Source: Thermoflexus hugenholtzii
GTDB taxonomy: Bacteria; Chloroflexota; Anaerolineae; Thermoflexales; Thermoflexaceae
Assembly: GCF_018771565.1 (NCBI RefSeq)
Contig: NZ_CP076326.1
Location: 1,674,001 to 1,738,000 of the forward strand
Length of the DNA stretch: 64,000 bases
Reading direction: 5' to 3'
Shown here: positions 4,305 to 32,777 of the stretch, one piece after another
Position numbering within the stretch: position 1 is the first letter of the stretch
How the letters are laid out: every line of letters starts with the position of its first letter
Translations under genes and position numbers: made by a program
The notes under the pieces: model-generated
Told to the model about the DNA's origin: nothing
What the model saw: only the letters and a program-made list of their open reading frames with translations
Database searches by the model: none

Positions 4305-4362
4305 AGTGGGAGCGGCTTCAGCCGCGACGGAAGACGGAAGTCGGGGCTAAAGCTCCTCCTAC
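4305..4362. repeat. Interspersed imperfect palindrome (AGTGGGAGCGGCTTCAGCCG type)
   Basis: The left arm GTGGGAGCGGCTTCAGCC and the right arm GGGGCTAAAGCTCCTCCTAC are near-complementary around a GACGGAAGACGGAAGT core. Elements of this style (GTAGGAGCGGCTTCAGCC and its complement) recur in intergenic DNA of many GC-rich bacteria. It lies in the 289-bp gap between the membrane-anchored unknown and the alcohol dehydrogenase. The rest of that gap holds the terminator at 4400-4440 and otherwise nothing I can interpret. Confidence 0.55.
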
Positions 4363-11607: not shown

Positions 11608-13038
11608 TTACGGGCACTTCGCCCCGGGGAACCCCTGGGCGATCCAGTCGGGGGTCTTCATCCCGTCGGGCGGGTTCACGCACTCCGCGGGGAACTCCAC
11701 GACATCCGTGAGCTTCACCTCCCCGGTCGCCGGATCGAAGTCCCCGGTGATCCCCAGGACCACGGGCTCCACCGCCTGATGGCCCTTCCCCAGGGCCATG
11801 CGGATGATCCCGCTGGGGGTCTCGAACTCCAGATGCTCGAAGGCGGCGATCACCTGATCCACCGTCGGCCACTTCCCGCCGTTGGCGGCGATGGCCTTCT
11901 CATAGGCCGCCTTCACGCCCAGGATGGCCTGGGCGATGTGGTAGGAGGGATAGACCGGGCGGACCACATAGCGGTCCTTGTAGATCTTCACGAACCAGTC
12001 GTTGAGGGGCGTCTTCGGGGCCAGGGCCCCGTGGGGGCCCCGGGCGGCGATCACGATGCCCTTCGTGACATCCCGGCCCAGGCGGGGGAGGATGGTGTCC
12101 CCGGTGGTCAGGATGGCCATCGTCTGCTGGAAGAAGCCGCGAGGGGCGGCCTGGATCACAAAGGCCTCGAGATCACCGCCCCAGAAGCTGGAGTGGACCA
12201 CCTCGGGGCGGGCGGCGAGCAGGGCGGAGAGCTCCGTCGAATACTCGCCGGCATACAGCTTGGGGAAGTGCTCCCCGACCACCTGCACATCCGGCTTGAG
12301 CTTGCGGACGGAATCGCGGAAGGCGGCCCAGGAGTCCTGCCCCCAGGCGTAGTTCTGATTGATCCCTGCGATGCTGCGGAGGTTCGGCTTCATCCGCAGG
12401 ATGTAGCGGGCGGCGCCGACGTTCTCGATCACCTGATGGGCGTGGGTCCGGAAGACGTAGCGGTAATCCCGTTCCTCGAAGATCTGGTTGGTGCCGCAGT
12501 CAAAGAGCACGGTGAGGGTCTTGAGCTCCTCGGCCACCGGGGCCACCGCCAGGCAGTCGGCGCTGGAGATGTAGCCGATGACCAGGTCCACCTTCTCCTC
12601 CAGCACCAGACGGCGGAACTCCGCCACCTGCTTCTCCGCGCCGCCGGCTTCGTCTATGTAGATCGCCCGGATGGGCACGCCGCCGATCCCCTTCTGGTCG
12701 TAAGGCTTGGGCGCCTTGCCGGCGTTGAGGTTCTCGATCAGGACCTCCGCGGCGTTGCGGGCGGGCACCCCGAAGGGCGAGGCCGCCGGGCCGGAGAGGA
12801 AGGTCACGATGCCGATCTTGAGGGCGGCCGGGGCCCCGGGGACGGCGGGGGTCGGCGTGGGGGGTGCCGCCGTCGGGGTCGGGCCGGCCGGCACCGGGGT
12901 GGGGCTCGGCGCAGGAGCCGCCGCCGTCGGCGTGGGCGGTGCCGGAGGCGGCGTGGGGGTCGGCGTGGCCGCTGGGGCGCACGCCCCCATCAGAAAGGCC
13001 AGGATCACTCCGCTCCGCAACCAGCGACTCGGACACAT
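11608..13038 (-). CDS. Liv-type substrate-binding lipoprotein
   Basis: A 476-residue extracytoplasmic binding protein. The N-terminus has a basic start, a hydrophobic stretch and the lipobox FLMGAC with the lipidated Cys at about residue 20. About 50 residues of Ala/Thr/Pro repeats follow, probably a flexible linker over the cell envelope. The folded part begins LKIGIVTFLSGPAASPFGVPARNAAE and has the two-lobe type I binding fold (NQNYAWGQDSWAAF, SYHIAQAILGVKAA). It is the first gene of the first Liv set and should capture the substrate and hand it to LivH/LivM. GGAGGGG sits before the ATG. The substrate cannot be read from sequence; the neighbouring amidohydrolase suggests an amide-containing compound. 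Confidence 0.88.
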   Translation of the reverse strand: MCPSRWLRSGVILAFLMGACAPAATPTPTPPPAPPTPTAAAPAPSPTPVPAGPTPTAAPPTPTPAVPGAPAALKIGIVTFLSGPAASPFGVPARNAAEVLIENLNAGKAPKPYDQKGIGGVPIRAIYIDEAGGAEKQVAEFRRLVLEEKVDLVIGYISSADCLAVAPVAEELKTLTVLFDCGTNQIFEERDYRYVFRTHAHQVIENVGAARYILRMKPNLRSIAGINQNYAWGQDSWAAFRDSVRKLKPDVQVVGEHFPKLYAGEYSTELSALLAARPEVVHSSFWGGDLEAFVIQAAPRGFFQQTMAILTTGDTILPRLGRDVTKGIVIAARGPHGALAPKTPLNDWFVKIYKDRYVVRPVYPSYHIAQAILGVKAAYEKAIAANGGKWPTVDQVIAAFEHLEFETPSGIIRMALGKGHQAVEPVVLGITGDFDPATGEVKLTDVVEFPAECVNPPDGMKTPDWIAQGFPGAKCP

Positions 13039-30427: not shown

Positions 30428-30730
30428 TTAATCCCAAGCATAAAGGAGATCCTCCCGAACGTGCTTCCAGAGGTCGGGCTTCTGCGGAAGTGCTCCAGAG
30501 GTCAGAAGATCCACCTTCAAACCCAGGATCTCCTCCAGATAATCCCACAGTTCGAAGAACTTCAGCCCAATCGGCCGCTTCAGCCGCACCAGAAGATCCA
30601 CATCGCTCATCCCCGTTTGCTCTCCCCGGGCATAAGAGCCAAAGATCGCCAGATCTCGAACTCCGTAGCGCTCTCGGAGGATCTGCCGGTGTTCAATCAG
30701 GATCGCCCGGATTTCCTCCAGCGTCTTCAT
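30428..30730 (-). CDS. MNT-type minimal nucleotidyltransferase
   Basis: A 100-residue protein with the motif IFGSYARGEQTGMSDVDLLV, the GS-x10-DxD signature of minimal nucleotidyltransferases, and a third Asp in KVDLLT. In MntA/HepT systems such a protein is the antitoxin, which AMPylates a HEPN-domain RNase toxin encoded next to it. No HEPN gene is found on either side here, so this is an orphan or acts on a distant partner. GGGGGGAAG precedes the ATG, and a minus-strand TATAAT (30818-30823) lies about 90 bases upstream. Confidence 0.85.
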   Translation of the reverse strand: MKTLEEIRAILIEHRQILRERYGVRDLAIFGSYARGEQTGMSDVDLLVRLKRPIGLKFFELWDYLEEILGLKVDLLTSGALPQKPDLWKHVREDLLYAWD

Positions 30731-30929: not shown

Positions 30930-31535
30930 CTCCGCGCCAGGCGTCGGCCTCCGCCGACGCAAAAGCTGCCCCTTCGGTCGGCGCAGGCCGACCGTCGGCC
31001 GAAGGCCTCCACGCCGATTGGAAATCGGCCTTCTGAGGCGCTTACGCGCCAGGCGTCGGCCTCCGCCGACGCAAAAGACCCCCTCCCGGTCGGCGCAGGC
31101 CGACCACCGGCCGAAGGCCTCCACAGGCCGAATTCATTCGACACACATGGCCGAAGGCCTCCACGCCGATTGAAATCGGCCTTCAGAGGCGCTCCGCGCC
31201 AGGCGTCGGCCTCCGCCGACGCAAAAGACACCTCCCGGTCGGCGCAGGCCGACCATCGGCCGAAGGCCTCCACGCCGATTGAAATCGGCCTTCAGAGGCG
31301 CTGCACGCCAGGCGTCGGCCTCCGCCGACGCAAAGGCCATCCCTTCGGTCGGCGCAGGCCAACCGCCGGCCGAAGGCCTCCACGCCGATCGAAATCGGCC
31401 TTCCAAGGCGCTCCGCGCCAGGCGTCGGCCTCCGCCGACGCAAAGACCATCCCTTCGGTCGGCGCAGGCCAACCGCCGGCCGAAGGCCTCCACAGGCCGA
31501 ATTCATTCGGCACACATGGCCGACCGTCGGCCATA
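30930..31535. repeat. Array of about 110-bp hairpin-rich repeats
   Basis: Five units begin with CGCCAGGCGTCGGCCTCC at 30935, 31047, 31197, 31306 and 31416, spaced 112, 150, 109 and 110 bases. Each carries nested inverted repeats: GCGTCGGC/GCCGACGC, GGTCGGC/GCCGACC and GCCGATT/AATCGGC. A GGCCGAATTCATTCG segment is inserted after unit 2 and again after unit 5. Sequence between units is not unique, so this is not CRISPR. The array is open in several frames on both strands, giving false proteins rich in EAFGR and ADAWR. It fills the space between the MNT gene and ruvB; 30731-30930 shows only the possible MNT promoter. Confidence 0.9.
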
Positions 31536-31607
31536 GACCTCCCCAGGGCGAATTCCTTCGACGCGCAAGCCCGGTGCGAAGGAGGGCCGGGAGGCCCTGG
31601 CGGGGGG

Positions 31608-31613
31608 TATAAT
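31608..31613 (+). promoter_or_regulatory. Possible -10 element upstream of ruvB
   Basis: TATAAT occurs 52 bases before the ruvB start, at the edge of the repeat array. No recognisable -35 hexamer lies 16-18 bases upstream, so recognition may need an activator or another sigma factor. Confidence 0.4.
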
Positions 31614-31664: not shown

Positions 31665-32777
31665 GTGGCGCGTCGGAAGGAGACGGTGGATCGCCCATCG
31701 CCGGAGCATCCGCCCGCGTCCGAGCCGGCCCAGCCGGAGCGGACGATCGCTCCCTATCGCCGCCCGGAGGAGCAGGCGATCGAGCTCGCCCTCCGGCCCC
31801 AGCGGCTGGAGGAGTTCATCGGCCAGGAGCGGGTGAAGGAGAACCTGCGCATCCTGATCGAGGCCGCCCGGGCCCGCGGGGAGCCCCTCGATCACCTGCT
31901 CTTTTACGGCCCCCCCGGCCTGGGCAAAACCACCCTGGCCACCGTCATCGCCGCCGAGATGGGCGTCCCCATCCGCATCACCTCCGGCCCCGCCATCGAG
32001 CGGGCGGGGGACCTGGCCGCCATCCTCACCAACCTGCGGGCCGGCGAGATCCTCTTCATCGATGAGATCCATCGCCTCCCCCGGGCCGTGGAGGAGATCC
32101 TCTACCCGGCGATGGAGGACTTCGCCCTGGACATCGTCATCGGGAAGGGGCCGGCCGCCCGCAGCATCCGCCTGAGCCTCCCCCGCTTCACCGTCATCGG
32201 CGCCACCACTCGCCTGGCCCTGCTCACCGCCCCGCTGCGCGCCCGCTTCGGCGCCATCTTCCGCCTGGACTTCTACGACCTGCCGGCGATGGAAACCATC
32301 GTCCGCCGCGCCGCCCGGGTGCTGGGGGTGGAGATCGACGCGGAGGGCGTGCGGGAGATCGCCCGCCGCGCCCGCGGCACCCCCCGCGTGGCCATTCGCC
32401 TCCTCCGCCGCGTCCGCGACTACGCCCAGGTCCGCGCCGACGGCGTCATCACCGGCGCCGTGGCCGCCGAGGCCCTCCGGCTGATGGACGTGGATCCCCT
32501 GGGGCTGGATGAGCTGGACCGCCGGCTGATGCGCACCATGGCGGAGAAGTTCGGCGGCGGCCCGGTCGGCCTGGAGACCCTGGCCGCGGCCCTCTCTGAG
32601 GAGCCGGACACGATCATGGATGTGGTGGAGCCCTACCTGCTGCAGCTGGGCTTCCTGGATCGCACGCCCCGCGGCCGGGTGCTCACCCGCCGCGCCTACG
32701 AGCACCTGGGCCTCCCCTACCCTGGCGAGGCCGCCCAGCCTCCCCTGCCCATGGAGCCGGCCGGATGGGACGGGTGA
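31665..32777 (+). CDS. ruvB: Holliday junction branch-migration ATPase RuvB
   Basis: A 370-residue AAA+ motor that, with RuvA, drives branch migration of Holliday junctions. Family landmarks in order: [19 protein letters not shown], Walker [30 protein letters not shown], Walker B FIDEIHRL, the RuvB-specific [12 protein letters not shown], sensor [18 protein letters not shown], and the C-terminal winged-helix [24 protein letters not shown]. The GTG at 31665 is chosen because AGGAGG lies 6 bases before it; the long upstream open frame runs through the repeat array and is not real coding sequence. RuvA is not in the window. The stop overlaps ruvX by 13 bases. Confidence 0.97.

Follow-up and report, generated by a model that had tools for sequence, protein, structure and literature searches.

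Intergenic hairpin arrays of Thermoflexus hugenholtzii as probable REP-like elements of a subclass 1.2 TnpA transposase

Introduction

Upstream of ruvB in Thermoflexus hugenholtzii stands an array of composite hairpin repeats, which raises the question of whether the array belongs to ruvB or to a system of its own. A preliminary description had placed five units between a nucleotidyltransferase gene and ruvB and speculated on a link to RuvAB, for which cruciforms are substrates. The window in which we followed this up is a stretch of 64,000 nucleotides (G000:C1:1674001-1738000) from the single-contig, 3.32 Mb genome of the species, called G000 below. REPs with domesticated transposases are known chiefly from Proteobacteria. 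We find that an array beside ruvB is in itself ordinary, and that the array family is not.

Results and Discussion

Anatomy of the array beside ruvB

The five-unit array is real and lies where it had been placed. Hairpin C (GCGTCGGCCTCCGCCGACGC) occurs at window positions 30941, 31053, 31203, 31312 and 31422, with spacings of 112, 150, 109 and 110 bp, and Tandem Repeats Finder reports the array in two rows, scoring 505 and 585. The start reported at 30930 held; the end, reported at 31535, had to be moved to about 31562, and the three hairpins per unit of the earlier description became five or six on counting. The features, in window coordinates, are:

30428..30730, minus strand: nucleotidyltransferase gene (PF01909/PF18765), neighbour only
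30930..31562, plus strand: the ruvB-side array, five composite hairpin units; one of a family whose G000 members of 100 bp or more number 36
30941..30960, plus strand: hairpin C of unit 1, GCGTCGGC CTCC GCCGACGC
31013..31105, plus strand: hairpins A-B-C-D, A loop TGGAA
31127..31142, plus strand: extra F hairpin of the second unit (GCCGAATTCATTCGAC)
31165..31254, plus strand: complete unit, hairpins A-B-C-D, A loop TGAA
31274..31364, plus strand: next unit, hairpins A-B-C-D
31384..31441, plus strand: last unit, hairpins A-B-C
31496..31511, plus strand: F hairpin of the last unit (GCCGAATTCATTCGGC), the outer hairpin A inverted
31546..31562, plus strand: terminal F hairpin; F is the last recognised outer hairpin in 36/36 arrays
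31608..31613, plus strand: TATAAT, candidate -10 element of ruvB, a promoter assigned by eye
31665..32777, plus strand: ruvB, neighbour only

The 150-bp spacing of the second unit is due to its extra F hairpin at 31127-31142. Unit 1 is without an A hairpin and has a partial B; the orthologous array of G004, the closest congener, begins with A. Folded as single-stranded DNA, a single unit forms five local hairpins (z = -4.6), with none of 200 shuffles equally good. The open frames noticed earlier do run across the array on both strands and are spurious, and annotators should expect long spurious frames of this kind from such arrays. Elsewhere in the window, a 54-bp tandem repeat of 2.3 copies lies at 12847-12968.

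A family of intergenic arrays built from inverted dimers

The preliminary description had proposed looking for similar arrays elsewhere, and they were found. A search of G000 with its own ruvB-side array gave 83 matches in about 38 places. Of these, 36 are arrays of 100 bp or more (array counts omit the two of the 38 loci that fall below this length); they total 23.5 kb and 168 C hairpins and reach a length of about 1.5 kb. The arrays are built from the following modules:

module A: GCCGATTGAAATCGGC
module B: GGCGCnnnGCGCC
module C: as given above for the five copies beside ruvB
module D: GGTCGGCGCAGGCCGACC
module E: GGCCGAAGGCC
module F (optional): GGCCGAATTCATTCGGC

The order A-B-C-D-E, with F optional, is identical and of a single polarity in all G000 arrays. 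When hairpins A and C are considered, the first one scored is A in 34 of the 36 arrays and C in two, including the ruvB-side array; a D-E half stands ahead of some arrays. All 36 are intergenic, with none inside called genes. A CRISPR identity was rejected, the G000 arrays inspected being without unique spacers.

The modules of one half of the unit mirror those of the other. When A-B-C was aligned with D-E-F in reverse complement, 46 of 58 positions were identical and the score was 71; 2,000 dinucleotide-preserving shuffles had a mean of 17.4 and a maximum of 40, and the direct orientation scored 13. Therefore, the unit consists of two three-hairpin half-elements, A-B-C and D-E-F, joined as an inverted dimer. 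A unit from the cyanobacterium Tychonema is likewise an inverted dimer (38/49 identical).

A single-copy TnpA between two arrays

A Pfam search of G000 for Y1 transposases gave four hits. The gene that concerns us here stands among the arrays:

G000:C1:1827594-1828028 (L050:14695-15129), minus strand: tnpA1, 144 aa, one copy, between two arrays

Its orientation opposes the polarity of both flanking arrays, its neighbours are pyrimidine nucleoside phosphorylase and ThyX, and no tnpB was noticed among the ORFs beside it. TnpA1 belongs to Pfam Y1_Tnp, scores 58 bits against NCBIfam transpos_IS200 (cut-off 55) and 25 bits against REP_Tyr_transpos (cut-off 80), and is matched by sequence by solved IS200-type TnpA chains, including ISHp608, at E about 1e-7 to 1e-5. 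The catalytic residues H55, H57 and Y115 are invariant (12/12). With its motifs DHLH, WQ and YIQRQKEHH, it is the sole TnpA of G000 with Y---Q--HH, and the next Y1 relative in the genome is 25% identical.

In Quentin et al. 2018 (PMC6006769), TnpAY1 subclass 1.2 is characterized by Y---Q--HH, WQ and DH[IV]H, a length of about 148 aa and low copy number, with emphasis on Cyanobacteria and Bacteroidetes; the table there has "no" under REP for this subclass and gives its role as none known. Judged by these motifs, TnpA1 is a member of subclass 1.2, although its HuH motif, DHLH, has L where DH[IV]H is expected. Two other assignments were rejected. TnpAY1 class 2 (RAYT) would call for Y---NP in place of YIQRQKEHH, and the REP_Tyr_transpos score lies below cut-off; an IS200/IS605 insertion sequence would come in several near-identical copies, and G000 has a single copy of the subclass 1.2 gene.

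Within the genus, tnpA1 homologues occur in G003 (82% identity) and G008 (78%), with arrays on both sides in each. Array-derived frames aside, TnpA1 is the only protein common to the tnpA1 loci of G000, G003 and G008. The orthologous site of the G000 gene holds one A-to-F monomer without tnpA in G004, and neither array nor tnpA in G001, G005 and G008. Therefore, as the tnpA1 loci are unrelated and the G000 site is empty or monomeric in congeners, the association of tnpA with arrays has been made or moved more than once. Empty, single-copy and expanded multi-copy states are thus all present at one orthologous site among close relatives, with an array length of about 1.2 kb in G000 and about 0.15 kb in G004. 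Together with the five units of G000 against two in G004 at ruvB, this bears out the earlier suggestion of an unstable, expanding locus.

No tnpA1 homologue was found in array-bearing G004 and G001; G006 has arrays, and the search for tnpA1 there gave one marginal hit (E 9e-4). Three further families of the class have single A-to-E/F elements whose stems are altered yet still pair (L025, L028 and L030). In two of the genomes concerned, G014 and G024, no close tnpA1 homologue was found, and that of the third, G020, is flanked by a different array.

Hairpins beside tnpA in Chloroflexota and Cyanobacteria

A class-wide search returned TnpA1 hits in 117 of 249 genomes, some IS200 proteins among them. 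We scanned named genomes and obtained 80 tnpA loci, 39 of them cyanobacterial, with Y---Q--HH present in 75 of the 80 TnpA1 relatives. Perfect 8-bp hairpins reach 2.66 per kb at up to 1 kb from tnpA vs 0.36 per kb at 2-3.5 kb, a comparison confounded by the greater share of intergenic DNA in the near windows, to which the same-class control below is a partial answer. By a stricter test, which asks for two or more repeated hairpins per kb, 25/80 near windows qualified vs 0/78 far ones.

Many of these hairpins share an apex. TNAA-apex hairpins with stems of at least 7 bp, counted on the TNAA-reading strand (TTAA on both), number 281 in 148.6 kb near tnpA, at 53/80 loci, vs 13 in 197.1 kb farther off, at seven loci, or 1.9 vs 0.07 per kb; 27/80 loci have none within 1 kb of tnpA. 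A side list of tetraloops drops loops with pairable ends, TNAA included, and hence provides no TNAA control. The flanking hairpin repeats themselves are lineage-specific, and TNAA loops recur on unrelated stems in two phyla.

Spread through the host genome is uneven. Matches to the Tychonema unit number 78 in the genome it comes from, 71 and 52 in two genomes of Microcoleus and two in a Xenococcaceae genome; a Spirulinaceae genome and five Chloroflexota gave none. The arrays beside tnpA in G020 and G039 turned up at the tnpA locus and nowhere else in those genomes; in G033, the G020 array has 13 weak matches. General dispersal of tnpA-side repeats was accordingly dropped as a rule: it holds in Thermoflexus and Oscillatoriales and fails in G020 and G039.

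These data bear on the first alternative, that the repeats are autonomous or relics, spread by replication slippage and recombination, and that an IS200-like transposase simply lands by preference in hairpin-rich DNA. Arrays persist in G001 and G004 without tnpA1, their copy number varies in place, and hairpin DNA is a plausible target of a Y1 transposase. Such a preference should also place other IS200-like genes in hairpin DNA. Within the same class, Y1 genes with Y---Q--HH (32 rows representing 31 loci, as L270 and L194 are one locus) have 2.24 hairpins and 1.20 TNAA hairpins per kb around them, vs 0.36 and 0.03 for 18 IS200-like loci without that signature, of which one has TNAA hairpins and none has repeated hairpins. 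The IS200-like proteins also form their own FastTree clade (0.946), with no subclass 1.2 member inside; the base of the 1.2 set is poorly supported (0.311). Given this control and the recurrence of TNAA loops on unrelated stems in two phyla, we regard autonomous spread as unlikely.

Comparison with known systems and a proposed mechanism

The arrays consist of many-copy intergenic palindromes in inverted dimers and tandem clusters, as do the REPINs and BIMEs that accompany RAYTs (TnpA-REP, class 2), and, as in the REPtron of E. coli, a single-copy Y1 transposase stands between copies of its own repeat family, on both sides in G000, G003 and G008. Unlike these systems, the Thermoflexus transposase is of subclass 1.2, the half-elements have three hairpins, the arrays extend to about 1.5 kb and no GT[AG]G guide stands at the hairpin foot. 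A conserved guide tetranucleotide adjoining the hairpins was looked for and none was found: among 1138 hairpin occurrences, GT[AG]G stands 0-2 nt 5' of two and CGTC of one, and membership in the GTAG or CGTC REP super-families was rejected. The placement as a variant of the REP/REPtron theme rests on anatomy and distribution.

Other comparisons are partial. IS200/IS605 elements share Y1_Tnp, a transpos_IS200 score over cut-off and hairpin ends, but TnpA1 has one copy per genome, multi-unit arrays around it and a separate clade in the tree. With subclass 1.2 as described in PMC6006769, TnpA1 shares DHLH, WQ, Y---Q--HH, a similar length (144 aa), low copy number and an occurrence in Cyanobacteria; unlike that description, hairpin repeats here flank tnpA, and the genes are common in Chloroflexota. 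Clustered REPs in a Chloroflexota genome have a precedent in the GTAG-23 REPs of Thermomicrobium roseum, reported by Di Nocera et al. 2013 (PMC3733652). In literature mostly outside subscription journals, including PMC6006769, PMC3733652 and PMC12306157, we found no earlier report tying subclass 1.2 to repeats.

The arrays are probably REP-like elements of a subclass 1.2 TnpA, amplified in tandem where they stand and scattered by TnpA. Counting against this reading are the arrays of G001, G004 and G006, which have no clear tnpA1 in their genomes, the confinement of the G020 and G039 arrays to the tnpA locus, the 27/80 loci devoid of TNAA hairpins, the mere 25/80 that qualify by the stricter test, and the missing guide tetranucleotide. 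TnpA1 may recognise the hairpins on single-stranded DNA, as its TnpA relatives suggest, and might cut and join them in the manner of TnpA-IS200 and TnpA-REP. This activity would scatter monomers and aid their amplification: single copies would be seeded in intergenic DNA and then amplify in place, and the resulting arrays would grow, shrink and be tolerated there. More broadly, it seems rather likely that subclass 1.2 supplies the enzyme for an ancient superfamily of REP-like elements in Cyanobacteria and Chloroflexota, with pairs of inverted multi-hairpin half-elements, TNAA apices, no GTAG guide, and single copies that are seeded and then amplified into long arrays. If the link is true, subclass 1.2 gains candidate substrates open to in vitro study, and REP-like systems reach two more phyla, another enzyme class and other hairpin rules.

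Stem covariation and possible roles for RNA and ruvB

The stems are nearly invariant within G000 (one double change, 0.26 expected), too little variation to judge, and we therefore compared them between species. Across 20 A-B-C-D units, drawn from seven genomes of Thermoflexus and from three further families of its class, 96.4% of cells are paired, a percentage inflated by the hairpin-favouring patterns with which the units were chosen, which do not inflate compensatory changes; slid structures reach at most 39.9%. Eleven pairs changed on both sides vs a shuffled mean of 3.3 (none of 500 shuffles as high), and the covariation score was 0.207 vs 0.077 shuffled. Thus, the stems covary between species. 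When 131 units were given to RNAalifold, the predicted structure was long-range, did not resemble the local hairpins and showed no covariation.

Covariation and stable folding (z = -12.5 for the whole ruvB-side array as RNA, 20 shuffles) would also suit the second alternative, in which the arrays are structured RNA, terminators or protectors of mRNA ends and selection on RNA maintains the hairpins; 27 of the 36 arrays occupy gaps between codirectional or convergent genes. This distribution (23 codirectional, 9 divergent and 4 convergent) shows no preference over that of the remaining gaps, 80 bp or longer, in the same stretches (76, 29 and 6; P = 0.50), and a promoter or terminator role judged by orientation was dropped on that ground. 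Stem mismatches within G000 comprise 37 G.T and 37 A.C, so nothing indicates selection on the RNA of one strand, and this single test lends no support to the structured-RNA source proposed in the preliminary description. With no Rfam match over the gathering threshold in the window and nine arrays in divergent gaps, an RNA role appears quite improbable.

Returning to the REP-like reading, the ruvB site itself looks like one landing place of many. Its array is shared by G000 and G004, where RuvB is 97% identical and the array has two units, and is absent in all six other congeners compared (G001, G002, G003, G005, G007 and G008); a single motif match in G001 is spurious, and G006, with weak paralogous hits and no true ruvB, stands outside the count. 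The TATAAT box, 46 bp past the array end, is conserved whether or not a congener has the array. An action of the array on ruvB, as a cruciform RuvAB substrate or a supercoiling-sensitive promoter element, gains something from that short distance, and is scarcely credible for an array that six of six other congeners do without and that has 35 counterparts of 100 bp or more at unrelated loci. The array probably plays no part in how RuvAB works, and lies upstream of a conserved -10 box.

A second Y1-linked repeat system in G000

A second Y1 protein, at G000:C1:304772-305101 (L052 1363-1929), is a RAYT of the canonical kind, with 121.5 bits against REP_Tyr_transpos (cut-off 80). Canonical REPs (GGAGCGGCTTCAGCCGCGA and its variants) stand on both sides of it, and G000 therefore carries an ordinary REPtron that serves as an internal yardstick. 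The REP pattern matches the genome 91 times forward and 84 times in reverse, some of these matches being one palindrome read twice, and a control pattern has 0. One copy of this RAYT-linked family lies in the window at 4309-4327 (G000:C1:1678309-1678327). Two Y1-linked repeat systems thus occur within one genome.

The two families meet at L010, where the arrays at G000:C1:1937864 and 1942446 start exactly where a canonical REP (GCCGCTCCT/GCCGCTCCTAC) ends, as if one element had been joined onto the other. Within the array at G000:C1:239754-240192 (L034) lies a palindromic element with ends GGGTGTGTCCCAA / TTGGGACACACCC and CCTCCCA on both flanks; it resembles a small transposon, and similar pieces adjoin other arrays.
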